Assembly (NCBI GenBank): GCA_945898095.1
Contig: CAMDHE010000009.1
Coordinates: forward strand, 1 to 64,000
Source of the DNA: Roseateles toxinivorans
GTDB lineage: Bacteria; Pseudomonadota; Gammaproteobacteria; Burkholderiales; Burkholderiaceae_C
Direction of reading: 5' to 3'
Length of the DNA stretch: 64,000 nt
The position numbers were made by a program, and so were the translations under genes. The notes under the pieces are model-generated. The model ran no database searches. It saw only the letters and a program-made list of their open reading frames with translations, and was not told the DNA's origin. Positions 1,252 to 59,197 of the stretch are shown piece after piece; position 1 is the stretch's first letter; every line of letters begins with the position of its first letter.

Positions 1252-1271
1252 CATCGTCCGAGTCAACTAGA
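1252..1271 (-). promoter_or_regulatory. Palindromic operator upstream of hsaD
   Basis: Read on the minus strand the site is TCTAGTTG-ACTC-GGACGATG, an 8-4-8 arrangement with the GGACGATG arm nearer the gene. It is one of about 13 copies in the window and lies 53 bp before the hsaD ATG. Confidence 0.7.
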
Positions 1272-1324
1272 TTTCGCAAGGCTGGGAGGAGCGCCGCAAG
1301 ACCTGGCCCGAATTGACGGGCCGG

Positions 1325-3115
1325 TCAAATCAAGGGCAGATAGCTTTCGGCCTTGTCGTCGCGCAGGAACAGCGGATCGCTGACCATAACCCGGTCATAG
1401 CCCTCGCGCTGCAGGTCGACTTTGCGCAATTTGTAGTTGCCGGTCATGTCGGGCAGCGGTGCGATGCGTACGTAGAGCGGCGCGGCATAGCGCGGCAGGC
1501 GCGACATGGCCAGTTGCCAGAAGGCTGCCGGATCGAAACTGAAACCCGGCTGCATGACCAGGGCCGCCATGCCGGCGCGACCTTCGGCCCCAGGCACTTT
1601 GACGCCGTAAATGGTGATCGATTCCAGGCCTGGGAAATCGCCTAGCCCATCGGCAACCTCGGTGGTCGAGACGTTCTCGCTGTTCCAGCGGAAGGTGTCG
1701 CCGATGCGGTCGACGAACCAGCAATAGCCGTCGGCATCGCAGCGCAGCAGGTCGCCCGATGACCACCATGCGTCGCCGGATTTGAAGACATTGCGCAGGA
1801 TTTTCTTTTCGGTTGCTTCGGCCGAGGTATAGCCCTCGAAACGCCCGCCGACGACATCCGGAATATTGATGATCATGCCGATGGCTTCACCCACTTCGCC
1901 GACTTCGCAGGTCTGTAAAAAGCCGTTGGCATCGCGCAGATAGCTTTCGTTGTCGATGTCGTAGCGGACCAGGCGCAGATTGGTCTTTTCCCAAAACGGC
2001 ACCCGGCCGCAACTGCCGGCGCGGTTGTCGACGTTGATCGTATTGGTATTGGCTTCGGTCGAGCCCCAGCCCTCATAGATCTCGAATTCGCCGAAGCGGG
2101 CTATCCATTGTTCCCAGACTTCGGGCGCCAGACCGGCGCCGACCATCTTGCGCAGGCTGTGCTGGCGGTCATCGGCCTGCGCGGGGCTGGAGAGCAGGAA
2201 GCGGCAGATCTCGCCGACATATTGGCAGATCGTGATCTGGTAACGGCGAATGTCGGACCAGAATTCGCTGCGGCTGAACTTGCGTCTCAGCACCATGCTG
2301 GCGCCTGCGGCAAAAGCGGTGGCGCCGACTGACAGCGACGCCGCGCCGTGATAGAGCGGCAAGAAGCAATAGAAACAGTCCTGTGGCTGCACATCCATCG
2401 TGGTCTGCATCACATCGCCGGTAATCAACCATCGGGCATGGCTGATCACTGCGGCCTTGGGCAGACCGGTGGTGCCCGAGGTAAAAATATAGATGGCCGG
2501 GTCGCCTGCCACGAGGCCGGCGCGCCATTGCGCAGGCGGGTTGCCATCCTCGGCTTGGCTGGCTGCCAGTTCGAAGTCGAGTTCGCAGAGCAGGCGCTGT
2601 TCGGCAGGTGCAGGCCGCTCGTTATCAGGCCAGAGCCAGCAGCGGATACCTGACGGCATCTCGGTCGCTGCGATCAATCCCAGGCATTCCTCGCCGACGA
2701 TGACCAGGCTGGCGCCGGTGGCCTGCAGCCCATGCAACAAGGGTTTGCCCTTCACATTCGTGTTGAGGAAAACCAGCGTGACACCCAGCTTGGCCAGGCC
2801 CAGCCAGACAAACAGGAAGGCTGGCCGGTTTTCCATGCACAGCGCCACCACATCGCCACGCCGCAGGCCCAGCTGATGCCCGGCATGGGCGACCTGATTC
2901 ACCTGGCGGTTGGTCTGGTCATAGTCCAGGGTCTGGCCGGCATAGGTGATGCAAGGCCGCTCGGCGTAGCGCGCCGCATTTTCTTCAATGCGCTCGGCAA
3001 TGGTGTAGGTCTGCGAAGCGCGATGATGCTGACCGGCCTTGGCCCGGCGGTCGAGCTTGGCCTGAGTCACTTCGCGCGGAACGATAGCTGCGGCTTCTTT
3101 CACAAGCGTACCCAT
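1325..3115 (-). CDS. FATP-type acyl-CoA synthetase (steroid side-chain acid CoA ligase)
   Basis: ATP-dependent, AMP-forming CoA ligase of 596 residues. The P-loop-like motif FTSGTTGLPKA is at about residues 211-221, YEGWGSTE further on, and the overall form matches the fatty-acid-transport-protein branch (FadD6/FadD17-like) rather than ordinary long-chain FadD. Located at the end of the chsH2-chsE1-chsH1-ltp2-chsE2 operon, it most likely activates the carboxylated steroid side chain (for example a C24 or C22 acid) to its CoA ester. The starting acid cannot be read from sequence. The downstream gene hsaD is separated by 125 bp that contain an operator. Confidence 0.8.
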   Translation of the reverse strand: MGTLVKEAAAIVPREVTQAKLDRRAKAGQHHRASQTYTIAERIEENAARYAERPCITYAGQTLDYDQTNRQVNQVAHAGHQLGLRRGDVVALCMENRPAFLFVWLGLAKLGVTLVFLNTNVKGKPLLHGLQATGASLVIVGEECLGLIAATEMPSGIRCWLWPDNERPAPAEQRLLCELDFELAASQAEDGNPPAQWRAGLVAGDPAIYIFTSGTTGLPKAAVISHARWLITGDVMQTTMDVQPQDCFYCFLPLYHGAASLSVGATAFAAGASMVLRRKFSRSEFWSDIRRYQITICQYVGEICRFLLSSPAQADDRQHSLRKMVGAGLAPEVWEQWIARFGEFEIYEGWGSTEANTNTINVDNRAGSCGRVPFWEKTNLRLVRYDIDNESYLRDANGFLQTCEVGEVGEAIGMIINIPDVVGGRFEGYTSAEATEKKILRNVFKSGDAWWSSGDLLRCDADGYCWFVDRIGDTFRWNSENVSTTEVADGLGDFPGLESITIYGVKVPGAEGRAGMAALVMQPGFSFDPAAFWQLAMSRLPRYAAPLYVRIAPLPDMTGNYKLRKVDLQREGYDRVMVSDPLFLRDDKAESYLPLI

Positions 3116-3138
3116 TTCTCTAGGCTATCTTCTTGTTT

Positions 3139-4320
3139 TCAGCGTACCGGCCGCGGCATGCGCAGACCGAACTGGGCGATCAGCTCGCGCTGGATCTCGT
3201 TGGTGCCGCCGCCGAAGGTCAATAGCGTGGCGGCGCGGGTCTCATATTCGAGCTCACCCAGCAGCAGCGCGGCGCTTGAGCCGACCCGCACCAACGCGCT
3301 ACCGCCGACGATGTCCATCAAACGGCGCAGGACCTCGATCACGGATTCAGAACCATAGACCTTGGTCGCAGAAGCCAGGGCGATGTCCATGCTGCCGGCT
3401 TCCAGGCTCGCAGCAATCCGGAAGTTGATCAGTCGCATGGCTTCCAGCCGCGCATAGCATTCGGCCAGTGAACGGCGCACCCAGGCTTGGTCGACTGCGC
3501 GTCGGCCTTGCTCATCGCGGGCCTTGGCCCAGCGCAGCACGCGCCCGAACGGGGCAAAAACCTTGTCCGACCAGGAACCCAGGCCCAGGCGCTCATGGTT
3601 CAACTGCGCCGTGATCAGCTTCCAGCCACCATGCAGTTCGCCGACCAGGCGGTCAGCCGGCACTTCGACATTGTCGTAATAGGTCGCGGCAGTGAAATTG
3701 CCGACGGTCTTGATCAGCGTATGCGAAAAGCCCGCTGCATCGGTATCCAGGATCAGGATTGAAATGCCTTTGTGCCTGGCCAGTTCGGTACTGGTGCGGG
3801 CAGCCAGCCAGACATGGTCGGCTGACTCGATGCCCGAGGTCCAGAGCTTGGCGCCATTGACGATGAAACGGCCGCTTTGCAGATCGCCTTCCAGCTTGGC
3901 CTGAGTCTTCAGCGCTGCCAGATCCGAGCCCGCCTGCGCCTCCGAATAACCGATGGCAAAAATCGTTTCGCCAGCGGCGATACCGGGCAGAAAGCGTTCC
4001 TTCTGCGCCGCCGTGCCAGCTTCCATCAGCGCCGGTCCGACCGTGCTGATGGTCACGAAAGGCAGGGGAGCGCCAGCGATATTGGCTTCCTCGAAGAAGA
4101 TCAGCTGCTCGGTTGCGCTGAGTCCCTGGCCGCCATGGGCTTTGGGCCAACCGACCGCCAGCCAGCCATCCCGGCCCATCTGTCGGATCGTCTGGCGATA
4201 AAGCGCGCCGCCTTCGGCACCGCGCAACTCGACCAGCAGCTCCGGCGTCATCAGGCTGTTGAAATAGTCGCGAACCTGCAGACGCAGCCGCTGTTGTTCA
4301 GGAGTCAGGTCGATGAACAT
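3139..4320 (-). CDS. Acyl-CoA dehydrogenase, ChsE2/FadE29-like
   Basis: Acyl-CoA dehydrogenase of 393 residues starting MFIDLTPEQQRLRLQVR. It has the FAD contact segment SEAQAGSDLA, the catalytic-Glu region LNHERLGLG and the C-terminal FGGGTNEIQREL motif. In the actinobacterial 3-carbon side-chain module two unlike dehydrogenases, ChsE1 and ChsE2, form a heterotetramer that desaturates the C22 acyl-CoA; this one retains the NHER catalytic segment and pairs with the protein at 5923-7068. The ATG at 4320 lies seven bases after the ltp2 stop. An alternative in-frame start at 4341 would overlap ltp2. The symbol is left blank because the ChsE naming is by analogy. Confidence 0.85.
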   Translation of the reverse strand: MFIDLTPEQQRLRLQVRDYFNSLMTPELLVELRGAEGGALYRQTIRQMGRDGWLAVGWPKAHGGQGLSATEQLIFFEEANIAGAPLPFVTISTVGPALMEAGTAAQKERFLPGIAAGETIFAIGYSEAQAGSDLAALKTQAKLEGDLQSGRFIVNGAKLWTSGIESADHVWLAARTSTELARHKGISILILDTDAAGFSHTLIKTVGNFTAATYYDNVEVPADRLVGELHGGWKLITAQLNHERLGLGSWSDKVFAPFGRVLRWAKARDEQGRRAVDQAWVRRSLAECYARLEAMRLINFRIAASLEAGSMDIALASATKVYGSESVIEVLRRLMDIVGGSALVRVGSSAALLLGELEYETRAATLLTFGGGTNEIQRELIAQFGLRMPRPVR

Positions 4321-4327
4321 GGCCGTC

Positions 4328-5506
4328 TCAAGCCTCGCCAAGAATCAGGCCGCTGGTCGGCACGCCGGTGCCGGACGTGACCAAGACATTGCGGGTATCA
4401 GCCACTTGATTGACAGCGCTGCCGCGCACCTGGCGCACCGCTTCAGCGATGCCGTTCATGCCGTGGATATAGGCTTCGCCGAGCTGGCCGCCATGGGTGT
4501 TGATCGGCAGTCTGCCGCCGCGCTGATGGTGGCCGGCGCGGATGAAATCCTTGGCCTCGCCGCGCTTGGCAAAGCCGAATTCCTCCAGCTGCGGCAACAC
4601 GAAGGGGGTGAAATGGTCATAGATCACCGCCGTCTGGATGTCCTCGGTGGACAGGCCGCTTTGCTGCCAGAGCTGCTTGGCAACCAGGCCCATTTCGGGC
4701 AGTCCGGTGATGTCATCGCGGTAATAGGAGGTCATGATCTGCTGGCCGTCACTGACACCTTGAGCCGCCGCTTTGATGACGACCGGCTTGCAGCGCAGGT
4801 CGCGGGCGCGTTCGACCGAAGTGATGACCATGGCCACCGCGCCATCCGATTCCTGGCAGCAGTCGAGCAGGTGCAGCGGCTCACAGATCCAGCGCGAGGC
4901 CTGATGATCAGCCAGGGTGATCGGCTTGCCATAGAAAAAAGCAGCCGGATTGGTGGCGGCGAAATCGCGCGCCGCGACAGCAACGCGACCGAAATCCTCG
5001 CTGGTCGCGCCGTAGCGGTGCATATAGCGCTGCGCGAACATGCCGACCCAGGCCGCCGGCGTGTGGAAGCCATAAGGCATGTACCAACCATAGTTGACGT
5101 TCTCGAACAGCGGTGAATTGCCGAAGCCGTAGTTGCCATTGCCGAAGCGGTACCAACTGCGCTCGTTCATCGCGCGGTAAACCACAACGGTCTTGGCGAT
5201 CCCGGTGGCCACGGCCATCGCCGCATGCAGCACCGGCGCGCAGGCGGCGCCGCCGCCATGCGGAACCTGCGAGAAGAACTTGATGTCCTTGGCGCCGAGC
5301 AGGCGAGCGATTTCATACTCGGGCACTTTGTCGACCGAGTAGGACGAGAAGCCATCGACCTCGCTCGGGTCGATGCCGGCGTCGGCGAGCGCCTGCAAGG
5401 TGGCTTCCATCGCCAGACGGATTTCGGTGCGGCCGGAATTTTTCGAAAATTCGGTGGCACCGAGTCCGGCGATGGCGCAACGGCCGGAAATTGAGAAGTC
5501 GGTCAT
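4328..5506 (-). CDS. ltp2: Ltp2-type steroid side-chain aldolase (SCP-x thiolase-like)
   Basis: Thiolase-superfamily protein of 392 residues beginning MTDFSISGRCAIAGLGATEF. The region GGGAACAPVLHAAMAV and the C-terminal NTHGGQLGEAYIHGM block are those of the SCP-x/Ltp group. Ltp2 enzymes carry out the retro-aldol cleavage of the 17-hydroxy C22 steroid acyl-CoA, releasing propionyl-CoA and the 17-ketone, and work in complex with the DUF35 domain of ChsH2, which is encoded upstream at 7065-8018. The order chsH1-ltp2 agrees with the actinobacterial module. The start is set at 5506 by homology of the N-terminus; upstream codons in frame have no family resemblance. Confidence 0.9.
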   Translation of the reverse strand: MTDFSISGRCAIAGLGATEFSKNSGRTEIRLAMEATLQALADAGIDPSEVDGFSSYSVDKVPEYEIARLLGAKDIKFFSQVPHGGGAACAPVLHAAMAVATGIAKTVVVYRAMNERSWYRFGNGNYGFGNSPLFENVNYGWYMPYGFHTPAAWVGMFAQRYMHRYGATSEDFGRVAVAARDFAATNPAAFFYGKPITLADHQASRWICEPLHLLDCCQESDGAVAMVITSVERARDLRCKPVVIKAAAQGVSDGQQIMTSYYRDDITGLPEMGLVAKQLWQQSGLSTEDIQTAVIYDHFTPFVLPQLEEFGFAKRGEAKDFIRAGHHQRGGRLPINTHGGQLGEAYIHGMNGIAEAVRQVRGSAVNQVADTRNVLVTSGTGVPTSGLILGEA

Positions 5507-5531
5507 ATCAGTGATTCCTGGCTGTTCGACA

Positions 5532-5936
5532 TCAAGGCAGGTGCACGCGCACCGTGCCGGTGACATGGCTGCCCATCGAGTTCTTGCCCTTGAGCGTGAT
5601 CTGGACCGTGCGGTCGGACTCGCGCTTTTCGGTGACTGCGCCTTCAAAGGCGAGCAAGTCACCCGGATAGTTGGGCGCACCCAGCTTGATCTTCAGGTCG
5701 CACAAGCGTCCTTGAGGGCCGCTCCAGCCCTCGACAAAGCGCTGCACCAGGCCGTTGGTGGTCAGGATGTTCATGAAGATATGGGGTGAACCGAGCGCGC
5801 GCGCCGCATCCAGGTCACTGTGACCGGGGAAATAATCGCGTGTGGCGATCGCCCCACCAGCAATCAGCGCCACCGTCACCGGCACGCTCAAGGGCGGCAA
5901 TTGCTCGCCCGGCTGCACATCGTCAAATCGGCGCAT
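5532..5936 (-). CDS. chsH1: MaoC-like enoyl-CoA hydratase small subunit ChsH1
   Basis: Single hot-dog domain of 134 residues starting MRRFDDVQPGEQLPPL. The hydratase motif with Asp34 and His39 (RDYFPGHSDLDAA) is intact, so this subunit should hold the active site of a ChsH1-ChsH2 heteromer that hydrates the C17(20) double bond of the C22 enoyl-CoA. It overlaps the end of the dehydrogenase gene at 5923 by 14 bases and precedes ltp2, an arrangement that fits a multi-enzyme side-chain module. Length is normal for the family. Confidence 0.88.
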   Translation of the reverse strand: MRRFDDVQPGEQLPPLSVPVTVALIAGGAIATRDYFPGHSDLDAARALGSPHIFMNILTTNGLVQRFVEGWSGPQGRLCDLKIKLGAPNYPGDLLAFEGAVTEKRESDRTVQITLKGKNSMGSHVTGTVRVHLP

Positions 5937-7068
5937 GGCTGCTGGCCTCGCTGTCTTCGTCGGAGTCATATTTCCATCCCAATTTGTCGTTATTGGCCAG
6001 CCAGTCGCCCAGCATGGCCAGCTGATGTTCGGTGCCGCCCAGCGCCTGGCCGAGTGCACGGCTCCAGAACAAAAAGCGGTGAATCGGATAAGTGATGTCG
6101 ACGCCGATGCCGCCATGGACATGCTGTGCCATATGGCCGGCGCTGTGGCCGGTGTCGTTGGCCAAGGCCCGGGTGGCCCAGGCTTGCGGCTTGGCGCCCA
6201 GACCGGCGTCGATCCGGTAGACCAATTGCCACAGTGAAGTGCGCAAGGCCTCGGTGGCGATATAGCCATCAGCCATCTGTCCGGCGACCAACTGGAAACT
6301 GCCGATGACGCGGCCGAATTGCTGGCGCTCGCTGACATAGTCGACGGTGCGACGCAATTGCTCCTGGGTCACACCCAGCTGCAGCGCGGCCAGGCAGGCG
6401 ATCGCGCGCGGCTCGATCCAGTCGACCGCAGCGGCCGGCAGGATGTTTTCGGCAGCGATCGGCAGCCCATCAAAAACCAGATCGGCCAGCGCCTGATGGT
6501 GCTGGCTGACGCCTTCATGCTTCTGGATGCCGTCCTGCATCAAGTCGACCAGCAACAAGCGCATCTGGCCTTCGGCCTCCGCTGCCAACAAGGCATGGCG
6601 GGCCAACGCTCCCAGAGGCACAGCCGGGGCAATGCCCGACAAGGTCCAGCCAGCGCCGCTGCGCAGCAGCCGCAGCGAAGCGCCGCGCGACTCCGACAAG
6701 GTCGTCAGCGACAAGGCCAGCGGCAAGTCGCCAGCCATCGCCTGGCCAACTACCTGCGGGGCCGAACCGAATCGGGCCAGCGTGGCTGCCGCCAATTGTT
6801 GCTCCCACAGCGGCAGCAGCGCCAGCGCCCGGCCTTGTTGTTCGAGGACGGCCATCAATTCAGTCATGCCCAGCCCGAGGCCGCCATCGGCTTCGGCAAT
6901 GATCATCAGATGCAGTCCGGCAGCGACAGCTTGCTGCCAGAGCTCACGCATGAAGGGTGCGCCCGATTCATCATGGGCACGCAGCTGGTCGTCGCTGCAA
7001 AAATCGGCAAACAGTCCGCTGGCCATTTCGGCAAAAGCGGTTTGGTCTTCGCTCAGGTTGAAATTCAT
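5923..7068 (-). CDS. Acyl-CoA dehydrogenase, ChsE1/FadE28-like
   Basis: Acyl-CoA dehydrogenase of 381 residues with the conserved core TVDYVSERQQFGRVIGSFQ and QHVHGGIGVDITYPIHRF near the C-terminus. It lacks the usual TNEIQR ending and the NHER-like catalytic segment seen in its partner at 3139-4320, as expected for the non-catalytic, FAD-binding half of a ChsE1-ChsE2 heterotetramer (family knowledge). Start ATG overlaps the chsH2 stop by four bases (ATGA). Substrate is inferred from operon context to be the 3-carbon steroid side chain. Confidence 0.85.
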   Translation of the reverse strand: MNFNLSEDQTAFAEMASGLFADFCSDDQLRAHDESGAPFMRELWQQAVAAGLHLMIIAEADGGLGLGMTELMAVLEQQGRALALLPLWEQQLAAATLARFGSAPQVVGQAMAGDLPLALSLTTLSESRGASLRLLRSGAGWTLSGIAPAVPLGALARHALLAAEAEGQMRLLLVDLMQDGIQKHEGVSQHHQALADLVFDGLPIAAENILPAAAVDWIEPRAIACLAALQLGVTQEQLRRTVDYVSERQQFGRVIGSFQLVAGQMADGYIATEALRTSLWQLVYRIDAGLGAKPQAWATRALANDTGHSAGHMAQHVHGGIGVDITYPIHRFLFWSRALGQALGGTEHQLAMLGDWLANNDKLGWKYDSDEDSEASSHAPI

Positions 7069-8018
7069 GCGGCCGCTCCTTCGGTGAGCAGACGGAACTG
7101 CGGCAGGACCAGATCGCCATCAAAAGTATTGAATTCAACTTGTACCGCTTGCCCGATGCGGACATCGCCAGGCGGGATGCCGACCATTTGCGAAATCAAG
7201 CGCGTGCCTTCCTCCAACTCGACCAGCACGATCAGGTTCGGATGCTCGAACGGCGGCACTTCGGGGTAATGCATCACCACGAAGGAATAGACCTTGCCGC
7301 GTCCCGAGGCCTGCAGCGCATCCCATTCAAATGAATGGCAGCTCGGACACACCGGGCCGGGTGGATGGCGCAGCGTCTGGCAGGCCGAACAGCGCTGGAT
7401 CAGCAGCTTGCCGGCGCGCGCGCCTTCCCAGAAGAAACGCGTGTCATCGCTGATGCCAGGCGGGGGCCGTTTGGCAGCCGCAATTGCCTTCGGCTCAGCC
7501 ACTTTGACCGGCTGTGCCGGGCGGAACTTGAAGACCCGAAACAGCAACTGACCGACCTGTTCGTCGCCCTGCGGCAGTTCGGAAAAATAGCTCATCACCA
7601 GGGTGACGAAATAGCCGGTACCCAGGGCCGTCACTTTTTCGGGGCTGATGGCGTCGAGCCGGGTCGTGTAATAAAGCTTCTCGCCTTCGCGCACATCACG
7701 ATCGAAGGTCAGCTCCGAGTTGACCGCCACCACCGACGGCAGGCCCTGTGCCTCCATCAGCTTCAGCGCCTCATAGGGATTTTCCTGGGTCGATCCGGGC
7801 GGGTAGTTGTTTTGGGTGAAGCCTTCCATGCACCAGACCTGCAACATCGCCGGCGGGGCGATCACAGCGCCTTCGACCAGATAGGGTTTGTCGTCAACGC
7901 CCATCACTTCGCACCATTGGCGAATCATCGGCGCGTTGACCTTGTCCCAGGCGTAGACCCGGCCATATTCCTTGCCCACCAGCGGGCGGATGTCCTGCAT
8001 CCAGGCTTGCTCGTCCAA
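7065..8018 (-). CDS. chsH2: ChsH2: MaoC-like hydratase N-domain fused to DUF35 OB-fold
   Basis: Two-domain protein of 317 residues. Residues 1 to about 165 form a MaoC-like hot-dog domain; residues about 185-317 form a DUF35 domain with a zinc ribbon, C-x2-C-x10-C-x2-C in the segment around QRCSACQTL, then an OB fold. In the known ChsH1-ChsH2-Ltp2 system the DUF35 part docks Ltp2 and couples hydration to retro-aldol cleavage. It is the first gene of the leftward operon. A TTG start at 8018 is supported by AAGGAG eight bases upstream; no better ATG exists in frame. The 398-bp divergent region before it carries two operators. Confidence 0.9.
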   Translation of the reverse strand: MDEQAWMQDIRPLVGKEYGRVYAWDKVNAPMIRQWCEVMGVDDKPYLVEGAVIAPPAMLQVWCMEGFTQNNYPPGSTQENPYEALKLMEAQGLPSVVAVNSELTFDRDVREGEKLYYTTRLDAISPEKVTALGTGYFVTLVMSYFSELPQGDEQVGQLLFRVFKFRPAQPVKVAEPKAIAAAKRPPPGISDDTRFFWEGARAGKLLIQRCSACQTLRHPPGPVCPSCHSFEWDALQASGRGKVYSFVVMHYPEVPPFEHPNLIVLVELEEGTRLISQMVGIPPGDVRIGQAVQVEFNTFDGDLVLPQFRLLTEGAAA

Positions 8019-8127: not shown

Positions 8128-8147
8128 ATACGTCCAAAAGGACGATG
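8128..8147. promoter_or_regulatory. Palindromic operator between chsH2 and the TonB receptor
   Basis: ATACGTCC-AAAA-GGACGATG on the plus strand, nearly symmetrical with a 4-base spacer. It is 110 bp from the chsH2 start and 270 bp from the receptor start, so chsH2 is the likelier target. The 398-bp gap 8019-8416 holds only this site and the one at 8308. Confidence 0.65.
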
Positions 8148-8307: not shown

Positions 8308-8327
8308 TCTAGTCTTTTCAGACGATG
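8308..8327 (+). promoter_or_regulatory. Palindromic operator upstream of the TonB receptor
   Basis: TCTAGTCT-TTTC-AGACGATG, 90 bp before the receptor ATG. A possible -10 hexamer (TACGCC, 8354-8359) follows 27 bases later, which would place the operator over the -35 region. The surrounding 31 bases (8301-8331) are identical, inverted, to 26038-26068. Confidence 0.7.
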
Positions 8328-8416: not shown

Positions 8417-10702
8417 ATGCTCGGAAAATTCCCCACCTTGCGCCCGATTCCCCTCGCAGCGCTGACATTGACCCTGCTGGCTTCAGCCGCCCAGGCCCAG
8501 TCACAGGACCAGTCCAAGGCCACAGCCGCCAAGGCCGACTCTGACAAAAATGTGCTTGAGCAGGTCGTCGTGACGGTGCAGCGGCGCAAGGAAAAGCTGC
8601 AGGATGTGCCGGTCGCTGCGACCGCCATCGGTGCAGCCGATCTGGAGTTACGCGGCATCGGCAATATCGCTGATCTGAGCGCGCTGGCGCCGAATCTGCT
8701 GGTACTCCACACACCAGGAAACGCCAGCGCTTCGCAAATCGCCATCCGCGGCTCGGTCACTTCAAACCCGGCATTGTTCTGGGAGACCACGGTCGGCATG
8801 TATGTCGACGGCGTTTTCATGGGCAAGAGCCAGGGTTCGATCTTCGACTTGGTCGATCTGGAACGAGTCGAAGTCTTGCGCGGTCCGCAAGGCACGCTGT
8901 ATGGCCGCAATACGTTGGCCGGCGCGGTCAACATGATCACGCGCAAGCCCTCGGGCGAACTGGGTGGGCAGGCCAGTATTGACCTGGGCAACTTCAACGC
9001 CAGGGTGACAAAACTTTCGCTCGATCTGCCATCGATGGGCCCATTGAAGGCCTCGGTCGGTCTGCGTGACGAGAAGCGCGACGGCTGGGTCAAGACCACG
9101 GCGGGGAGTTCGGTGCCGGCTTTGAACAACCGCGATAACAGCGGCGGGCGCGTGGCATTGACGCTCGATGCGAGCCGCGACCTGCAGATCGACTACCGCT
9201 ACGACTGGAGCAAGGCCGATCAGGCACCAGTTTTCTCGCAAGTCGTCAGGTCGGATGTGGCGACGATGTTCTTCATCCCGGGCATCATCGTCAACCCGAC
9301 TCGCCAGACGAAGGCTTCAATCGATGGACCTTCATTCGAACGTTATGACATCGCTGGCAACTCCTTGACGGCCGAATACAAGGTCGGCGCCAATGACACG
9401 ATCAAGTATGTCTTGTCGCGCCGCACAATGCATTGGGCCGATGCGCTGGACCTCGACGGTTCGCCGATTCCCCTAGCGCATACCTCGCGAATCTCTGATT
9501 ACAGCCAGGATTCGAACGAGCTGCAATGGCTTGGGAATCGGGGCGATCTGTCCTATGTCGGCGGAATTTACTCGTTCAAGGACGATGGTTTCACCAGCAA
9601 TCCGCAGAGTTTCTTCTTCGGCGCGCAGAACTTTGATTCGCGTTATGGATTCACCACCAACGCTTTGTCGGTCTATGGACAGGCTGACTACAAGCTGAGC
9701 GAGAACATGACGCTGACTGGCGGCTTGCGCAACACCAAGGAAGACAAGACAGTTCGTCGTCAACTGTCGATGAGCGGCGTGAATACGACTTACTCGGCCA
9801 CCGGTGTGCCGACTTACACACCATACGGTCCGATTCCCCTGGTTCCGACGGGTACCAGCGGTGCGACCTCGTTCAGCGCGACAACGCCGATGTTGAGCCT
9901 GGGCTACAAGGTCCACAAGGACCTGAATGTCTATGCCCGTTATGCCGAGGGCTTCAAGAGCGGCGGCTTCAATGGCGAGGCCCAGTCAGTGGCTGCGGTG
10001 TTGACGCCGTTCCGGCCTGAGAAGCTCAAGTCGATGGAGTTGGGCTTGAAGACCACCTTCGACCAGAATCGTGGTCAGTTGAATGTGGCGGTCTTCAACA
10101 ACCGCACGACCGACCTGCAGCAACCGATCTTTACCGCCAAGGGTTCGGCCGCAACTGACGTCCGCAATGTCGGCACTTCGACCGCGCAGGGCCTTGAGGT
10201 CGAAGCGCAATGGCGGCCGACGCGCGACCTGCGCCTGCAGGTGGGTTATGGCTATATGAGCGCCAAGTTCAACGAGTTCATGGAACTGGGTGTCAATGTC
10301 GCCAACAACCGGGCTTATGTCTACGCGCCGAAAAATACGCTCAACCTGCTGGTTGATACCGTACTGGCGCGCACTAGCATGGGCACCTTGCGCGGGGTCG
10401 TTGACTACAGCTACACCGATTCCTATTATCTGTACGCCTATCAATTGGCGGTGACCGATCCGGGCAACGCAGCCGCGGTCAATACGCTGATCAAACCATC
10501 GGGCATCGTGAATCTGCGCCTGAACCTGGAGAACATCAGTCTCTGGGGTAATAACGCCACCGCCTCGCTGTGGGTGCGCAATGCCACCGATCAGGCACAA
10601 GTTGCCAACAAGATCGACTTCGGACCGGGCTTTGCCAATCTGACGCCGGCCTATTTCAACGATCCACGCACCTTTGGTGTGAGTCTGGGTGTGAAATGGT
10701 AA
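8417..10702 (+). CDS. TonB-dependent outer-membrane receptor for steroid uptake
   Basis: Outer-membrane receptor of 761 residues. A signal peptide (residues 1 to about 27, cut after ASAAQA) is followed by a TonB-box-like stretch near VLEQVVVTVQRR, a plug domain with RVEVLRGPQGTLYGRNTLAGAVN, a long beta-barrel and a C-terminal aromatic residue (SLGVKW). It belongs to the large iron-complex-type receptor family whose members in sphingomonads and related bacteria also carry hydrophobic organic substrates. Its place between the side-chain operon and kshA, behind a regulon operator, suggests that it imports steroids or bile acids. A good AGGAG ribosome site precedes the ATG and a terminator follows it. 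Confidence 0.88.
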   Translation: MLGKFPTLRPIPLAALTLTLLASAAQAQSQDQSKATAAKADSDKNVLEQVVVTVQRRKEKLQDVPVAATAIGAADLELRGIGNIADLSALAPNLLVLHTPGNASASQIAIRGSVTSNPALFWETTVGMYVDGVFMGKSQGSIFDLVDLERVEVLRGPQGTLYGRNTLAGAVNMITRKPSGELGGQASIDLGNFNARVTKLSLDLPSMGPLKASVGLRDEKRDGWVKTTAGSSVPALNNRDNSGGRVALTLDASRDLQIDYRYDWSKADQAPVFSQVVRSDVATMFFIPGIIVNPTRQTKASIDGPSFERYDIAGNSLTAEYKVGANDTIKYVLSRRTMHWADALDLDGSPIPLAHTSRISDYSQDSNELQWLGNRGDLSYVGGIYSFKDDGFTSNPQSFFFGAQNFDSRYGFTTNALSVYGQADYKLSENMTLTGGLRNTKEDKTVRRQLSMSGVNTTYSATGVPTYTPYGPIPLVPTGTSGATSFSATTPMLSLGYKVHKDLNVYARYAEGFKSGGFNGEAQSVAAVLTPFRPEKLKSMELGLKTTFDQNRGQLNVAVFNNRTTDLQQPIFTAKGSAATDVRNVGTSTAQGLEVEAQWRPTRDLRLQVGYGYMSAKFNEFMELGVNVANNRAYVYAPKNTLNLLVDTVLARTSMGTLRGVVDYSYTDSYYLYAYQLAVTDPGNAAAVNTLIKPSGIVNLRLNLENISLWGNNATASLWVRNATDQAQVANKIDFGPGFANLTPAYFNDPRTFGVSLGVKW

Positions 10703-11628: not shown

Positions 11629-12723
11629 TCAGGCCGCCGTGTAAGCCGGCACACCTCGGACGCGGTACATGCCTTCGCATTGATCCAGATATTCCTGCTT
11701 TTTCGCGCGCGGGTTGTAGAACTGCTTGTACCAGACCCTGCACTTCAGGAACGGGCCATCGCTGGGGATGAACAGGCCGTTCAGGCAAGGGCCTTTGTTG
11801 GTCCAGACTTCGAAGTCCTGGGCGAAAGCGAGGCGGCTCATTTCCTGGTACTGCTTGGCAGCCACCAGGTCATCGCTGGTGGTCGGCACCGCGCCGGTTG
11901 GCGACTTGACGATCAGCGAATGCCAGACCTTGATCTGGCCATCGTCGATCGGCGTGTGCATGATCAACAGCGCGGTTTCAAACAGGCCGGTCAGCATCGA
12001 GATCAAGACGCCGGGGCCATGGTAGACCGTGTCGGTATGCAGGGTTGAGGCACTGCCGTCGGCCGCGACCAGGGTGCGATGTCCGCCGCATTGGCGCTGT
12101 ATCGCCAGATGACCCTTGAATTCGTTTTCGTAGCGCTCGACCGTTGAGCCATGAATTGGCCCCAGATGGCTGTAGTCGGTGATGTTGTCGATCACCTCCT
12201 GCGGATGCTGATTCAAGACGCCGAGGTGATCCCAATGGCCCCGCACCCAACCCGCATCGTCCCATTGCGGCAGGCTCGGATGGGCCCATTCGGGATCGCC
12301 GCCTTCGGGGTCATGCCAGACCCAGATCGCGCCAAGGCTTTCGACAACCGTCCAGCTCTTGACGCAGGCTGCGGCAGGGATCGGACCATCGTGATAGGGG
12401 ATTTCATCGCATTTGCCGTCTGGGCCGAAGCGCCAGGCATGGTAGGGGCAGCGGATGCCGTCGCCTTCGATATTGCTGCCGCCGCGGTCGAGCACGACAT
12501 AGGAGGTGTTGTTGGGCGCCGCCAGATGGGTCTTCATATGCGGGCAATAGGCGTCGAGCAGGACCACCTTGCCGGTAGCCTGGCCGCGGTAGAGCGCAAA
12601 GTCTTTGCCGAAGAAGCGCACCGCCAGCGGCTTGTGCGTGTTCAATTCTTCAGCGTCGGCGATCATGAACCAGCCGCGGGGAAAGGTGAATTCGCCGAGC
12701 CGGTAGTCTTTTGTCGTGGCCAT
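11629..12723 (-). CDS. kshA: 3-ketosteroid 9alpha-hydroxylase oxygenase KshA
   Basis: Rieske non-haem iron oxygenase of 364 residues. The Rieske cluster ligands are Cys60-His62 (CPHMKTHL) and Cys92-His95 (CPYHAW). The mononuclear iron site is in NITDYSHLGPIH (Asn180, Asp183, His186, His191), with Asp303 as the third ligand candidate. KshA hydroxylates C9 of androstadienedione-type steroids; with KstD this makes ring B open non-enzymatically. Its reductase partner kshB lies 20 kb away at 32697-33743, whereas many clusters keep them together. GGAGATATTGA precedes the ATG. An inverted-orientation operator half-site is 64 bp upstream. Confidence 0.92.
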   Translation of the reverse strand: MATTKDYRLGEFTFPRGWFMIADAEELNTHKPLAVRFFGKDFALYRGQATGKVVLLDAYCPHMKTHLAAPNNTSYVVLDRGGSNIEGDGIRCPYHAWRFGPDGKCDEIPYHDGPIPAAACVKSWTVVESLGAIWVWHDPEGGDPEWAHPSLPQWDDAGWVRGHWDHLGVLNQHPQEVIDNITDYSHLGPIHGSTVERYENEFKGHLAIQRQCGGHRTLVAADGSASTLHTDTVYHGPGVLISMLTGLFETALLIMHTPIDDGQIKVWHSLIVKSPTGAVPTTSDDLVAAKQYQEMSRLAFAQDFEVWTNKGPCLNGLFIPSDGPFLKCRVWYKQFYNPRAKKQEYLDQCEGMYRVRGVPAYTAA

Positions 12724-12786: not shown

Positions 12787-12806
12787 CCTACCCCATTTGG
12801 ACGATG
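12787..12806 (+). promoter_or_regulatory. Degenerate operator upstream of kshA
   Basis: CCTACCCC-ATTT-GGACGATG. The right arm is a perfect match to the operator, but the left arm is poor, and the orientation relative to kshA is opposite to most other copies. It lies 64 bp before the kshA ATG in the only gap between kshA and the next gene. Confidence 0.45.
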
Positions 12807-14116: not shown

Positions 14117-14136
14117 CATCGTCCTGGCGGACTAGG
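14117..14136 (-). promoter_or_regulatory. Palindromic operator between OYE reductase and esterase
   Basis: On the minus strand CCTAGTCC-GCCA-GGACGATG, one of the best matches to the consensus. It is 51 bp from the OYE reductase start and 55 bp from the divergent esterase start, so it may serve both. Confidence 0.72.
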
Positions 14137-16004: not shown

Positions 16005-17204
16005 TCAGCCGAGCTGCACGACGCTGTTCAGCACCATCCGGACCAGCTCGGTCTGGCGGGTGACGCCCATCTTCGAAAAGATCGCCCGCAGATGGGCGCG
16101 CACGGTGTTGCGGCGGATGTCGAGTTGCTCGCCGGCTTCTTCCAGGCCGAGCCCATTGGCCAGCAACAAGGCCAGCGTGGCTTCGGCGGGAGTCAGGTCG
16201 AACAGTCGCCGGATCACGTCGCTCGATCCCTGCGTGCTGCGCTCGGGGTCGCGCAGGAAGATGGCGAGGCAGGGCCGATGGCCGCTCTCGGACCATTTGT
16301 CTCTTGGCAGCGTCCGCACCAACAGACTCAGCTTGCTGCGGCCCGATGGCCGGGTGATCGAGATCGCCTCGATCACCGTCGGCGTGATCGATTGCTTGAC
16401 GGGCTTGGGCAGCATCGACGTATAAGCGGCGTCGATCAATGCTTTGAGCTTGATTTGCTCGGCCGGGGACTCCGCCTTCAGCGATTTGCCGATCACGCGG
16501 ATGCCGTCCTGCTCGTTGAGGATTGCCTTGGCCTGATCGTTGATCGACAGGATGTCGCCTCTTTCGTCCAGCGTCACCGTGCCGATCCGCATCCGCTCGA
16601 CCGTGCCGGCGAACAGCTTGCGCTCGATGTCCAGGTGCTGCATATGCGAGCGCAGTCTGACGGCCTGCTTCAGGTGCGGCAGCAGCATCTGCGCGATGCC
16701 TTTTTCACGCTCGCCAAAGGGCTGCTGATCTTCCGAGCGGGCGATGCGTAGCCTGCATTCCTCGTCCTCGTTGTCAGAGCTGAGGTCGGCCCCCATGATG
16801 TGGCGCACGCCCTGTGGACGCAGGTATTCAAGGTAGAAGATGCTTTCCAGCCAGCGGGTCTCGCCGATGATTTCGGCAGCGACCAGCACCTGGTCGGGCG
16901 GCAGATTGCAAAAAGCGTCGAGCTCGAAAAAGCGCGAGTTGTAAAGGGCAAAAAAGCGCGCTTCGGTCGGACCTTCACTGACCATCAGGCTGGCCCGGTC
17001 AGCCGCGGCCGGCCGCATGATCAGCGTGGTGCTCATCGCGCCCAGCAAGGCGTTGAGCATTTTGACAAAGCTGCGCCAAGGCGGAGACTCCAGCGGACCC
17101 TGATAGATCGCCTGGGTCAGACGGTTGAACTCCGCCAGGCTCAGTTCCCGGGCTGGTTCGTCATCGATGCTGGGAGGGTGGCTGGTCAAGATGCTCTCAA
17201 ACAA
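16005..17204 (-). CDS. LuxR-family transcriptional regulator (solo), candidate steroid regulon activator
   Basis: Regulator of 399 residues. A long N-terminal sensory part of unknown ligand precedes a C-terminal LuxR/NarL helix-turn-helix (LTPAEATLALLLANG, then RRNTVRAHLRAIFSKMGV). There is no receiver domain. It resembles in length and layout the second regulator at 61800-62978. LuxR-type proteins such as TeiR are known testosterone-pathway regulators in Comamonas. The start is TTG at 17204 with AAGG just upstream; no in-frame ATG is near. An operator lies 116 bp upstream in the divergent region. Likely role: steroid-responsive control of the palindromic operators in this window (inference). 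Confidence 0.82.
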   Translation of the reverse strand: MFESILTSHPPSIDDEPARELSLAEFNRLTQAIYQGPLESPPWRSFVKMLNALLGAMSTTLIMRPAAADRASLMVSEGPTEARFFALYNSRFFELDAFCNLPPDQVLVAAEIIGETRWLESIFYLEYLRPQGVRHIMGADLSSDNEDEECRLRIARSEDQQPFGEREKGIAQMLLPHLKQAVRLRSHMQHLDIERKLFAGTVERMRIGTVTLDERGDILSINDQAKAILNEQDGIRVIGKSLKAESPAEQIKLKALIDAAYTSMLPKPVKQSITPTVIEAISITRPSGRSKLSLLVRTLPRDKWSESGHRPCLAIFLRDPERSTQGSSDVIRRLFDLTPAEATLALLLANGLGLEEAGEQLDIRRNTVRAHLRAIFSKMGVTRQTELVRMVLNSVVQLG

Positions 17205-17319: not shown

Positions 17320-17339
17320 AATAGTCCGTTCGAACGATG
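17320..17339 (+). promoter_or_regulatory. Palindromic operator upstream of acyl-CoA dehydrogenase pair
   Basis: AATAGTCC-GTTC-GAACGATG, 89 bp before the dehydrogenase ATG and 116 bp from the divergent regulator start. A TAGTGT hexamer 23 bases downstream could be the -10. It may also be the site of regulator autocontrol. Confidence 0.7.
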
Positions 17340-25954: not shown

Positions 25955-26103
25955 CGCGCTATTCCTTGGCGTCGGCTCGGCCGGCAAATGCCGGGGCAGC
26001 CTTGCTGCAGGCATAGCATCGGCCGCGCCAAGGCCCTGATTCATCGTCTGAAAAGACTAGAAATCCGCCCCGCCGAGCGAGAACAGCCGCGCTATTCCTT
26101 GGC
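25955..26103. repeat. 16-bp direct repeat flanking an operator segment
   Basis: CGCGCTATTCCTTGGC occurs at 25955-25970 and again at 26088-26103, where it covers the hsaB stop codon. The 117 bases between them carry the operator. The pattern suggests that a promoter segment was inserted between hsaB and the SnoaL gene with duplication of the junction. Confidence 0.7.
26042..26061 (-). promoter_or_regulatory. Palindromic operator upstream of SnoaL/epimerase operon
   Basis: Minus strand TCTAGTCT-TTTC-AGACGATG, identical to the receptor operator at 8308 and embedded in 31 identical bases. It is 89 bp from the SnoaL-like ATG, versus 90 bp for the receptor, and both have a GCTAYGCCTG segment at the matching -10 position. 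Confidence 0.7.
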
Positions 26104-27127: not shown

Positions 27128-27147
27128 AAACCCTCAGTCGGACTAGA
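27128..27147 (-). promoter_or_regulatory. Degenerate operator upstream of hsaB
   Basis: On the minus strand TCTAGTCC-GACT-GAGGGTTT: the left arm is perfect and the right arm is lost. Its distance of 53 bp to the hsaB ATG agrees with other copies, which is the main reason for listing it. Confidence 0.4.
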
Positions 27148-27188: not shown

Positions 27189-27208
27189 TTTAGTCTGATC
27201 GGACGATG
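27189..27208 (+). promoter_or_regulatory. Palindromic operator upstream of hsaA
   Basis: TTTAGTCT-GATC-GGACGATG, 103 bp before the hsaA ATG and 114 bp from the divergent hsaB. A near-perfect consensus copy at the head of the long hsaA-kstD-kshB operon. Confidence 0.72.
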
Positions 27209-39262: not shown

Positions 39263-39413
39263 TTTGAGTTGGCAATTCCTGGCTGCGGCGGCAGTTTGGC
39301 GCGAATCAGTTTTCACCCCGCAATTTTTAGTCTCATCGGACGATGCTTTGCGACTGGGGCGGGCCGAATACTCACCCCGTAACCCGAAGACTGGAGTTTT
39401 CCCATGCTGAATA
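39263..39413 (+). repeat. Duplicate of the hsaC promoter and first codons
   Basis: From the TTTGAGTTGGCA segment to ATGCTGAATA the sequence parallels 47166-47319, i.e. from the stop codon of the OYE gene through the first codons of hsaC. The operator, the GCCGAATA segment, TGGAGTTT ribosome site and ATGCTGAATA are conserved, with the same 59-bp spacing. After the copied start the frame closes within 14 codons (MLNTRSCAAAQGLN). It looks like a relic of recombination or of a lost hsaC copy. Confidence 0.75.
39326..39345 (+). promoter_or_regulatory. Palindromic operator in the duplicated hsaC promoter
   Basis: TTTAGTCT-CATC-GGACGATG. It differs from the hsaC operator by one base. The first full gene downstream is the DHH phosphoesterase, whose start is 176 bp away, so this promoter may now drive it. 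Confidence 0.7.
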
Positions 39414-40480: not shown

Positions 40481-40498
40481 GCGAGCCATGCTGCGGAC

Positions 40499-42415: not shown

Positions 42416-42416
42416 C

Positions 42417-43829: not shown

Positions 43830-43853
43830 ATCATCGTCCGCTTGGACGATGAT
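43830..43853. promoter_or_regulatory. Perfectly symmetrical operator between ksi and SDR operon
   Basis: The most symmetrical copy: ten-base arms ATCATCGTCC and GGACGATGAT around the spacer GCTT. It lies 58 bp from the ksi ATG and 73 bp from the SDR ATG, so it probably controls both directions. A TAAGCT hexamer at 43872-43877 may be the -10 of the SDR operon. Confidence 0.78.
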
Positions 43854-47231: not shown

Positions 47232-47251
47232 CTTAGTCTCATCGGACGATG
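47232..47251 (+). promoter_or_regulatory. Palindromic operator upstream of hsaC
   Basis: CTTAGTCT-CATC-GGACGATG, 59 bp before the hsaC ATG. A TAATCA hexamer at 47274-47279 could be the -10, which would put the operator centre roughly 42-45 bases upstream of transcription start. It heads the longest operon of the window. Confidence 0.74.
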
Positions 47252-56075: not shown

Positions 56076-56079
56076 ACTG

Positions 56080-56958: not shown

Positions 56959-56961
56959 CGC

Positions 56962-59169
56962 ATGACCTTGAACCCGGAGCAGCAAGCCATTCAGGTGGCG
57001 GTAGCCGACCTGTTGGCCGGGCAGGCTTCGTCAGCCGCATTGCGCGCTGCGATGCTTGCGGGCGACATCGACCACAAGCTTTGGCAGCAGATCGCTGAAC
57101 TCGGCTGCTGCGCCTTGCAACTCTCTGAAGCCCAGGGCGGCCTCGGCATGGGGACACTTGAGTTATGTCTGATCGCCGAGCAACTCGGCCGCCGACTGGC
57201 TTATGTCCCATGGTTCGAAAGCGTTGTGCTGGGCACCAGTTTGCTGGGTGAACTCGGCGCAGATGCAGCGCAATGGCTGCCGGGCTTGGCCGACGGCAGC
57301 CTGATTTCGACCTTTTCGACCGATCCAGTGCAGGCCTTGCCTGTCGCTGAAGGCTGGCGCCTGGATGGCCGGATTGAACAGTTCCAAGCCGCTGGATCGG
57401 CCGATCTGCTGCTGGTCACGGCCCGGCTGGCCGATGGCGAACTGCTCTTGTTTGCCTTGCCGCGAGATGCGCGGGGCCTGTCGATCAGTCCTTTGCAGTT
57501 GCATGATGCAAGCCGACCTGCGGCCTGCGTCGAGATGACCGGCATCTTGCTGGCGGATTGCCTGGCGCGCGGCAATTCACTGGCGGAAAAGCTCGCGCGG
57601 CTGCGCTTGACGGCCGCGACCGTACTGGCGGCCGAACAGGTCGGCGTAGCCCAGCAATGCCTTGATCTGAGTCTGTCCTATGTCAGCGGCAGGGTCCAGT
57701 TCGGCCAGCCGATCGCGGCCTTCCAGGCCATCAAGCATCGTTGCGCGCAGATGATGGTCAGCATCGAGTTGGCGCGCTCGGCGTTCTACGCCGCCGCGGC
57801 CACAAGCGATTTGCAACCAGTCGCGGCGGCACGCTGCCTGGCGAACGAAGCGGCCCAGTTCTGCGCCCAGGAAGCGATCCAGTTGCATGGCGGTGTTGGT
57901 TTTTGCTGGGAATACGACCCCCATCTGTACTTCAAGCGCGCCCAAAGCAATAGCCAATGGTTTGGCATGTCGACGCGCTGGCTGGATCAGGTCGCAGCCG
58001 AATTGCTGCAGGAGGCCTTGCCGCATGAATTGCCCGAGGAGGCTTTCCAGGCCGAAGTCCATGCCTGGCTCGAACAGCATTTGAGCGGGGAATTCCTCGC
58101 CATGCGCGGCTGCCTCGGTCCGGGTGACGACAGTTTCGCGCCGGCTCTGGCCAAGCGTTGGGAGCAATGCCTGGCTGCGGGCGGTTGGGTTGGCATGGGT
58201 TGGCCCACAGCCCATGGCGGGCGCGATCTTCCCTTGGCCCAACAAGTGGCGTTCCACGAGGCTTATGTGCGCGCCGGTGGCCCCGGGCGAATCGGGCATA
58301 TCGGCGAACAATTGCTCGCGCCGACGCTGATGGCCTATGGCACACCGGCCCAGCAGCAGCGCTTTCTGCCTGGTATCCGGGCCGGCACCAGTTACTGGGC
58401 CCAGGGTTATTCCGAGCCCGACGCCGGTTCGGATCTGGCCAATGTAAAGACCCGTGCCAAGCGCGAAGGCGACGAATGGATCATCAACGGCCAGAAAGTC
58501 TGGACCTCCTGGGCGCAGGAATCCGACTGGATCTTCGTGCTCGCGCGCACCGAAGCGGGATCGCAGCGGCATCGCGGCTTGAGCCTCTTGCTGGTGCCGC
58601 TGCGTCAGCCCGGCATCACGATTCGTCCGATCCGCCAGATGACCGGCAGTGCCGAATTCAATGAAGTGTTCTTCGACTCGGCGCGCACCGAAGCTTCGCT
58701 GCATCTCGGCGAGCTGGGCCAGGGTTGGAAGGTCGCAATGGACTTGCTGGGCTTCGAGCGCGGTGTCTCGACGTTGGGCCAACAAGCGCAGTTCGAGCAT
58801 GAATTGCAACTGCTGTTAAGCCAGGCGCGCCGCGACGGCTTGGCCCAGGAGCCGGTGCTGGCACAGCGCATCGCGTCAGCAGCAATTGGCTTGCAGGCAT
58901 TGCGCGCGAATGCGCTGCGGGTGCTGAGCGGTGCGGCAGGCAGCCCCGAATCCTTTGTCGCCAAATATGCCTGGTCGAATTGGCATCGTGACTTTGGTCG
59001 CCTGGCTGCCGATGTACTGGGTCCACGCGCCAATCTGATCGACGCCGATGCGGCCGCGCAGCGACTGCGTCAGGTCTGGCTGTACAGCCGCGCGGATACC
59101 ATCTACGCCGGCAGCAACGAAATCCAGCTGAACCTGATTGCCGAACGCGCGCTTGGCATGCCGCGCTGA
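56962..59169 (+). CDS. Fused double-domain acyl-CoA dehydrogenase (FadE34/ChsE3-like)
   Basis: Protein of 735 residues containing two acyl-CoA dehydrogenase domains in line. The first (1 to ~350) ends with QLHGGVGFCWEYDPHLYFKR and lacks the catalytic block. The second (~370-735) has GYSEPDAGSDLAN, FERGVSTLG and YAGSNEIQLNLIAERALGMPR-type ending. The fusion corresponds to a ChsE1-ChsE2-like pair joined in one chain, as in mycobacterial FadE34, which desaturates the C24 steroid acyl-CoA. Last gene before an operator and a new transcription unit. Confidence 0.87.
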   Translation: MTLNPEQQAIQVAVADLLAGQASSAALRAAMLAGDIDHKLWQQIAELGCCALQLSEAQGGLGMGTLELCLIAEQLGRRLAYVPWFESVVLGTSLLGELGADAAQWLPGLADGSLISTFSTDPVQALPVAEGWRLDGRIEQFQAAGSADLLLVTARLADGELLLFALPRDARGLSISPLQLHDASRPAACVEMTGILLADCLARGNSLAEKLARLRLTAATVLAAEQVGVAQQCLDLSLSYVSGRVQFGQPIAAFQAIKHRCAQMMVSIELARSAFYAAAATSDLQPVAAARCLANEAAQFCAQEAIQLHGGVGFCWEYDPHLYFKRAQSNSQWFGMSTRWLDQVAAELLQEALPHELPEEAFQAEVHAWLEQHLSGEFLAMRGCLGPGDDSFAPALAKRWEQCLAAGGWVGMGWPTAHGGRDLPLAQQVAFHEAYVRAGGPGRIGHIGEQLLAPTLMAYGTPAQQQRFLPGIRAGTSYWAQGYSEPDAGSDLANVKTRAKREGDEWIINGQKVWTSWAQESDWIFVLARTEAGSQRHRGLSLLLVPLRQPGITIRPIRQMTGSAEFNEVFFDSARTEASLHLGELGQGWKVAMDLLGFERGVSTLGQQAQFEHELQLLLSQARRDGLAQEPVLAQRIASAAIGLQALRANALRVLSGAAGSPESFVAKYAWSNWHRDFGRLAADVLGPRANLIDADAAAQRLRQVWLYSRADTIYAGSNEIQLNLIAERALGMPR

Positions 59170-59177
59170 ACAAGATT

Positions 59178-59197
59178 TATCGTCCGACAAGACGATG
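59178..59197 (+). promoter_or_regulatory. Palindromic operator upstream of ipdF
   Basis: TATCGTCC-GACA-AGACGATG, almost symmetrical, 57 bp before the ipdF ATG in the 84-bp gap after the fused dehydrogenase gene. Confidence 0.72.

Follow-up and report, generated by a model that had tools for sequence, protein, structure and literature searches.

The 64,000-bp stretch of Roseateles toxinivorans DNA analyzed here (positions 1 to 64,000 of contig CAMDHE010000009.1, hereafter the window) carries a steroid degradation gene cluster, in which a 20-bp palindrome with the consensus CATMGTCYNNNNRGACGATG recurs between the genes. The palindrome is real, and we are highly confident that it is the operator of TesR-family regulators, which are one-component LuxR/GerE-type activators with GAF and PAS sensor domains, and that it serves class II activation. 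The operator is very probably the switch by which a TesR-type activator turns the steroid pathway on in many proteobacteria. It is a new DNA site for an already known kind of activator, the regulator itself being known: a requirement for TesR/TeiR in steroid degradation has been on record since 2004, but the mode of action of the protein has been described contradictorily, as that of a transcription factor or of a membrane kinase. The predicted 20-bp operator with its fixed promoter geometry makes this mode of action directly testable, predicts the regulon gene by gene, genes without an assigned function among them, supports sequence-based annotation of steroid degraders, and offers a candidate promoter for building steroid biosensors. 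The site, its spacing, its conservation, its co-occurrence with the regulator, and its gene context were all computed here.

The initial annotation had listed about 13 copies of the palindrome in the window, 11 of which are clear sites: under a position weight matrix (PWM) from other species they are the top 11 places of the window, with scores from 27.8 to 15.4. The copy at 1252 is present but marginal (score 11.6, rank 13, below a coding place at 62456 with 12.0) and deserved the weak label that had rightly been given to 12787 (15.4), while 27128 (-1.6) is, as had been said, a half-site of which only one arm fits. The site reported at 43830 is likewise present, with its correct register at 43832. 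The window contains eight copies of the strict palindrome TMGTCYNNNNRGACKA, as compared with 0.01 expected from dinucleotide shuffles, and the 18-mer TAGTCYNNNNRGACGATG has six copies in the window and eight in the genome, against none for the reversed control pattern. According to the codon-model caller, which provided the gene calls in the window and in the fetched loci, the 12 full sites are all intergenic, as had been claimed. The window-derived PWM finds 10 sites when the threshold is 18 and 12 when it is 14, every one of them in the 5.9 kb of intergenic DNA, and none at threshold 14 in the 58.1 kb of called coding sequence; this PWM was trained on the same sites, and the intergenic-only result is thus a matter of consistency and not a test.

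The position of the palindrome relative to the promoter is a further line of evidence. Offsets run from the base immediately to the right of the dyad axis to the start of the hexamer; those from 12 to 49 were examined, and the spacing between operator and hexamer played no part in choosing sites. Of the 92 sites that face a gene on just one side, 78 have a NANNNT hexamer at exactly 30 bases, and the other offsets give 0-10 each. After removal of similar flanks, the hexamer stands at +30 in 59 of 72 promoters (mean of 2.2 at the 37 other offsets) and at 30 or 31 in 63. Across these 72 non-redundant promoters the flanks diverge while the site and the -10 element stay; agreement of the hexamer with TATAAT is T 0.15, A 0.83, T 0.19, A 0.32, A 0.61, T 0.88, and no TTGACA was found in them, apart from the TG contributed by the operator. 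With the hexamer taken as -12 to -7, the dyad axis falls at -42.5, over the missing -35 element. At the lux box, LuxR takes up its class II position near -42.5, and the class II hallmark, an operator over -35 at a fixed distance from the -10, is present here. The -10-like hexamers that the initial annotation had noted downstream of the operators are right and sharper than described: of the 21 site/direction pairs in the window, 15 show NANNNT at 30 (nine) or 31 (six), and each of the 13 sites has it in at least one direction, the - strand direction from 43832 towards ksi having no -10-like hexamer. The proposed asymmetry of the two arms also holds, since GACGATG occupies the promoter-proximal half in 50 of 72 promoters but the distal half in 20 of 72, which makes the proximal half the more constant of the two. 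The fixed spacing without a separate -35 could also be expected if the site were the -35 part of an alternative sigma factor promoter; we consider this very improbable, given the 20-bp dyad symmetry, the presence of -10 hexamers in both directions at some sites, and the retention of the second A and the last T of TATAAT. These two bases are typical of sigma-70.

In the rest of the 4.7-Mb source genome, the strict pattern has 14 places, eight of them in the window (1.4% of the genome), as compared with 13 genome-wide for the reversed control, so outside the window it does no better than chance. A profile was built from 78 sites of other species, which had first been found with the window-derived PWM, and genomes were scanned with it at E<=10, a first-look filter scoring 150 of 819 to 1343 candidates per genome. 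Among these 150 candidates, the source genome has 16 distinct places: nine in the window, four on contig C29, two on C55, and a weak one on C44. The TesR-less relatives G010 and G022 have no profile places among their 150 scored candidates. Thus the scan of the genome and its relatives that the initial annotation had suggested gave hits clustered in the window and two catabolic contigs, rather than a motif equally common elsewhere or in coding DNA, and relatives without the regulator have no clustered sites. The PWM sites outside the window (C29 15449, 18522, 25347, 35149, and 35234; C55 18818, 22676, and 24387) have a -10 at +30 in five of eight cases. Genes near the C29 sites encode an old-yellow-enzyme-like protein, a TauD dioxygenase, a pair of short-chain dehydrogenase/reductase (SDR) and enoyl-CoA hydratase, a TonB receptor, and a thiolase; those near the C55 sites encode an acyl-CoA ligase, an aldehyde dehydrogenase, a TauD dioxygenase, and a beta-lactamase-family protein. 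These genes may serve side-chain or further steroid steps, and the regulon probably extends beyond the window to extra steroid operons on C29 and C55.

The window encodes two LuxR-type proteins, R1 and R2, with C-terminal GerE domains (PF00196; 38 and 26.9 bits, gathering score 23.5). R2 shares 62% identity with the LuxR protein of locus L151 from Comamonas testosteroni ATCC 11996. Among 59 genomes, including the source genome, clustered exact sites occur in six (G000, 8; G015, 8; G016, 5; G017, 7; G021, 4; G034, 4), and these six genomes with at least four exact sites coincide with the set of six that have a strong LuxR match (E<1e-140); five further genomes have weak LuxR matches (1e-22 to 1e-32). 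All 53 other genomes have no or one exact site, single matches being found in seven. Four of the six site-cluster genomes come from one genus and are therefore not independent. The initial annotation had offered both LuxR proteins as candidates; the LuxR type stands, and the choice narrows to R2. Alongside their clustered sites, G015, G021, and G034 each have a single strong match, which is of the R2 type (60-67% identical to R2, with the same recognition-helix region), whereas a strong match to R1 is limited to G000, G016, and G017; hence R2 and not R1 is the conserved regulator. It is unlikely that R1 is the main regulator or that the two proteins divide the sites, despite the related helix-turn-helix (HTH), most of which R1 and R2 have in common, and the site upstream of R1 itself at 17320.

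In the surveys of TesR in the order and the family, scoring was limited to the few top candidates of each genome, and weak homologues may have escaped notice. Among 349 genomes of the order, including the source genome, at least two exact sites occur in G000, G127, G279, and G372, and TesR at E<=1e-60 in G000, G127, G279, and G319. The exact pattern misses the sites of G319, a genome with four TesR homologues, and three of the four LuxR genes there have profile sites nearby. G372 combines two exact hits with a weaker LuxR match (1.1e-37), and the two profile places looked at lack a -10. In 220 genomes of the family, at least four hits of a looser pattern (strands counted apart) were found in 10 of 10 genomes with TesR (E<=1e-60) compared with eight of 210 without. 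Of the TesR-less genomes with many hits, G462 has an hsaD/hsaA pair with a site; its assembly is 76% complete in 850 contigs, and the regulator may thus be missing from the assembly. Besides G530, the TesR-less genomes with four or five hits are G573, in which two places were looked at and lack a -10, and G032, G424, G463, G472, and G479.

A scan of named genomes yielded 80 TesR-family loci, 76 of which do not come from near-identical relatives of the window. At a PWM score of at least 18 these 76 loci contain 122 intergenic sites in 180 kb and 15 coding sites in 1181 kb, whereas permuted PWMs give 0 intergenic and 0.4 coding hits; 66 of the 76 have a site at PWM 16. At PWM 17, 17 sites in the fetched loci appear to be coding, and 13 of them have a -10 at +30 in some direction, so these sites probably reflect misplaced gene starts of the caller. 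Of the fetched loci, 27 have a site ahead of ipdF, among them several of one species and one, L076, from a near-identical relative; in 13 loci a site stands upstream of an R2-like LuxR gene. Phylum-wide LuxR homologues are represented by 27 short loci, which contain four sites at PWM 16 as compared with 0.25 for permuted PWMs. An origin as chance palindromes or a repeat family, for which only the single exact matches in genomes without a strong regulator match might speak, has negligible probability: the shuffles, the genome counts, and the permuted PWMs rule chance out, and the site and its -10 persist where flanks diverge.

Control loci were chosen by the regulator and by the pathway. Ten 19-20 kb loci of distant LuxR homologues with different recognition helices (148.9 to 232.1 bits) have no sites, and TesR-type proteins (at least 269.8 bits) have sites at eight of ten loci, 19 in total. 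Each of the seven exact matches found in TesR-less genomes falls within a stop-free frame (131-847 codons), and none has a -10 at +30. Homology to hsaA retrieved 31 plasmid records, from which six regions of 41 kb were taken. Two of them, from Vibrio alfacsensis and Caballeronia SBC2, include a TesR gene (435 and 503 bits) and contain four and five sites at PWM 15, eight of the nine with a -10 at +30; all four Vibrio sites are on the strand of the annotated gene that follows. The four sphingomonad regions, in which TesR was sought within the 41 kb only and is absent, contain one site (Novosphingobium aromaticivorans pNL2), none (Novosphingobium P6W), one (Sphingobium TomTYG73), and none (S. 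herbicidovorans), the two sites scoring 16.6 and 19.9 and both lacking a -10 at +30. Since TesR-less hsaA plasmid regions lack promoter-type sites, the site appears to follow the regulator and not the pathway, with one full pathway control, because Novosphingobium P6W alone among the four sphingomonad regions has the long seco-pathway gene set. A motif tied to hsaA-type genes in general is unlikely, as the sphingomonad regions are without it, though just one of the four is a long pathway cluster. The steroid-type cluster of the V. alfacsensis plasmid (L244 7304-38233), with its TesR homologue and four operators, has a toxin-antitoxin pair inside; this plasmid cluster suggests horizontal spread.

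The palindrome might instead belong to an unseen regulator of the TetR, GntR, or MarR type that travels with TesR, for instance a repressor. Dyad-symmetric sites are also typical of repressors, and the controls partly confound regulator with gene context; KstR and EdcR repress steroid genes elsewhere, as mentioned in parts of a review and a paper (PMC8399759, PMC8700777). We find this quite improbable, because the two LuxR proteins are the only regulators, with no TetR, among the 54 of 56 called window genes that were scanned, the sites recur around TesR-type genes in very different loci, and the fixed -42.5 position without a -35 suits activation and not repression. Co-occurrence with the regulator together with the -42.5 position backs the LuxR-type activator proposed by the initial annotation. 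The AlphaFold model of R2, built from 36 sequences, suggests a layout with a GAF-like domain at about 18-180, a PAS-like domain at 199-304, and the HTH at 314-380. PAS and GAF proteins are among the weak profile matches, and Foldseek returned mainly phytochromes and phosphodiesterase GAF domains at low TM-scores, the receptor VqmA also being listed. Neither R1 nor R2 has a Pfam match to an autoinducer-binding N-terminal domain, and no kinase domain was found in R2, for which Pfam gave GerE and a sub-threshold HTH_30 only (the search covered R2, not C. testosteroni TeiR).

Thus, we propose that the TesR-type regulator, R2 in the window, senses a steroid or an early catabolite, and that an R2 dimer binds the 20-bp site with the more constant GACGATG half towards the promoter. 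The dimer would be centered near -42.5, in place of the -35 element, and would recruit sigma-70 polymerase to a NANNAT -10 that has no usable -35, as in class II activation. Genes for ring degradation, side-chain degradation, and uptake would be switched on together, presumably as operons, and so would the ipdF group (59254-63804, all genes on the + strand with short gaps). Because this group, behind site 59178, includes the R2 gene itself, positive feedback is predicted. The gene order ipdF-MaoC-thiolase-R2 is common to the window and C. testosteroni NFYY023. A broader proposal, which we hold to be slightly better than an even bet, is that the operator and a GAF-PAS-LuxR TesR form a widespread proteobacterial steroid switch, spread together with the -42.5 geometry and also on plasmids, that TesR directly senses a steroid or a CoA-catabolite and exerts its effect at the DNA, contrary to the membrane-kinase model, and that its regulons include sulfate-activation and uptake genes.

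Several observations weigh against TesR as the activator acting at this operator. Ten of the 76 TesR-family loci have no site at PWM 16 within the stretch fetched, including two 21-kb Paraburkholderia loci (L116, L117), and two TesR-type 20-kb control loci (L228, L242) also lack one. In G530, two strong sites lie 1 kb apart (G530:C1:281888 and 282933; L172, L177), one with a hexamer at +31, and neither a TesR match in the genome nor a match to window proteins around the two sites was found; these palindromes are perhaps the site of another regulator. Regulator and gene context are partly confounded, with one long-pathway control among the plasmids and distant LuxR loci without steroid genes. 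The profile is not fully independent of the window, as its 78 training sites were found by the window-derived PWM, and at E<=10 it missed window sites 1252, 8128, and 12787. There is no -10 at +30 for the C29 sites at 15449 and 35149, the C55 site at 18818, or the C44 site. The R2 model is moderate (predicted local distance difference test score 73, predicted template modeling score 0.47). Finally, passages in two papers describe TeiR as a polar membrane protein acting via kinase activity (PMC6678751, PMC8399759), an account that does not fit a plain DNA-binding activator.

Table 1. Predicted operators and LuxR-type regulator genes in the window (PWM, window-derived score unless indicated; a dot marks sites between genes on either strand).
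Positions	Strand	Feature	Evidence
1252..1271	-	Marginal candidate operator, imperfect distal half, for hsaD (363-1199, -)	PWM 15.9; other-species PWM 11.6; -10 AAAGAT at +30
8128..8147	-	Predicted operator for chsH2 and genes behind (1325-8000, all -)	PWM 18.5; other-species PWM 18.4; -10 TAACTT at +30; absent from E<=10 profile places
8308..8327	+	Predicted operator for TonB-dependent receptor (8417-10702, +)	PWM 23.7; hexamer CAAGCT at +31
12787..12806	-	Weak candidate operator for kshA (11629-12723, -)	PWM 15.3; other-species PWM 15.4; -10 CAATAT at +30
14117..14136	.	Predicted operator between old yellow enzyme (12822-14012, -) and esterase (14191-15141, +)	PWM 19.6; hexamers at +31 in both directions
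16005..17204	-	R1, LuxR-type paralogue, C-terminal GerE HTH	Pfam PF00196
17320..17339	.	Predicted operator between R1 (-) and acyl-CoA dehydrogenase (17428-18579, +)	PWM 22.5; -10 at +30 (+ strand) and +31 (- strand)
26042..26061	-	Predicted operator for SnoaL/epimerase pair (24569-25953, -)	PWM 23.7; hexamer GATGCT at +31
27128..27147	-	Half-site before hsaB, unsupported as full operator	One arm fits; other-species PWM -1.6; CAAGCT at +30 towards hsaB
27189..27208	.	Predicted operator of divergent hsaB (-) and hsaA-kstD (+)	PWM 26.2; -10 GAGCAT at +30 towards hsaA, none towards hsaB
39326..39345	+	Predicted operator for DHHA1-domain open reading frame (39521-40480, +)	PWM 24.3; hexamer AATACT at +31
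43832..43851	.	Predicted operator between ksi (43407-43772, -) and SDR (43926-44654, +)	PWM 25.5; -10 TAAGCT at +30 towards SDR, none towards ksi
47232..47251	+	Predicted operator for hsaC and genes behind (47310 onward, +)	PWM 25.2; -10 AATAAT at +30; hsaC-upstream site also in C. testosteroni
59178..59197	+	Predicted operator for ipdF gene group including R2	PWM 24.0; -10 GATGAT at +30
61800..62978	+	R2, TesR homologue, proposed activator, predicted GAF-PAS-LuxR HTH	PF00196; AlphaFold; Foldseek

The genes around the sites (Table 1) belong to the 9,10-seco steroid pathway according to Pfam and NCBIfam and include hsaA-, hsaC-, kshA-, chsH2-, kstD-, and fadD3-like genes and others; the NCBIfam equivalog cut-offs were not reached by the hsaA and hsaC of the window. 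The short names ipdF, ksi, hsaD, and hsaB come from the initial annotation or are our presumed labels, fitted to Pfam and NCBIfam families. Sites upstream of kshA score 18-20 in L084, L105, and L115, and one precedes kshA in C. testosteroni as well; a site between hsaA and hsaB is also found in C. testosteroni and in L095, L103, and L127. The site at 17320 is also present in the near-identical relatives L145 and L146. Two further features of the cluster may be mentioned. The genes cysD and cysN-C and the DHHA1-domain open reading frame (39521-43319) are located inside the steroid cluster of the window, and cysD, or cysDN with the DHHA1 reading frame, recurs near TesR-type operators in Cupriavidus and two further genomes (L130, L131, L134, L225, L243). 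The 735-aa protein encoded at 56962-59169 consists of two fused acyl-CoA dehydrogenase units, and its best counterpart in C. testosteroni NFYY023 (2845050-2846213) has about 387 aa.

The closest known system is TesR/TeiR of C. testosteroni, to which R2 is related by the identity to the ATCC 11996 protein given above and by its location in a steroid cluster. In C. testosteroni the strict pattern misses the motif, and the PWM reveals a one-base variant of it. In strain NFYY023 (G574, which gave hits identical to those of G127 and is evidently the same genome), nine of 12 distinct profile places among the 150 scored candidates fall in a 170-kb stretch, and the sites precede hsaA, hsaB, hsaC, ipdF, and kshA as well as genes for a thiolase, an SDR, and others. 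Within a 190-kb region, a -10 stands at +30 on one side or both for 13 of 15 sites, and these sites overlap with the 92-site set. Because a few sites of C. testosteroni (L093, L120-L122) belonged to the training set of the profile, this genome is only a partly independent case. We take hsaA, hsaB, and hsaC to be tesA1, tesA2, and tesB, which head three operons with reported TesR dependence; on this equivalence, the operator is shared upstream of these operons. One passage in the literature states that TesR is required for induction of tesB-tesR, tesA1-tesG, and tesA2-ORF18, and that tesR-like genes were reported in C. testosteroni only (PMC6895838), and part of a review mentions two TeiR-like genes in Pseudomonas stutzeri Chol1 (PMC8399759). 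Here, in contrast, homologues with the operator are found in many Burkholderiales, on a Vibrio plasmid, and in others. The literature searched, which left out the primary TesR/TeiR papers of 2004 and 2008, gave no TesR operator. With LuxR and the lux box of Vibrio fischeri the predicted system has in common a 20-bp dyad near -42.5 over the -35 and a GerE-type HTH, but the operator sequence differs, and R2 has a predicted GAF-PAS sensor instead of an autoinducer domain. KstR and KstR2 of Actinobacteria likewise control a coordinated steroid regulon, with a palindromic operator mentioned for KstR in one passage (PMC8700777); however, they are TetR repressors, a family not found among the scanned window genes, and their homologues are absent from bile-acid-degrading Proteobacteria according to a section of the review (PMC8399759). 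EdcR of Caenibius tardaugens also has a palindromic operator in steroid-degradation promoters; as described in part of the same source as for KstR, it is a repressor whose operator TnnCnnTACnAnTnGTAnnGnnA sits over the -10 (PMC8700777), whereas the operator proposed here lies at the -35.

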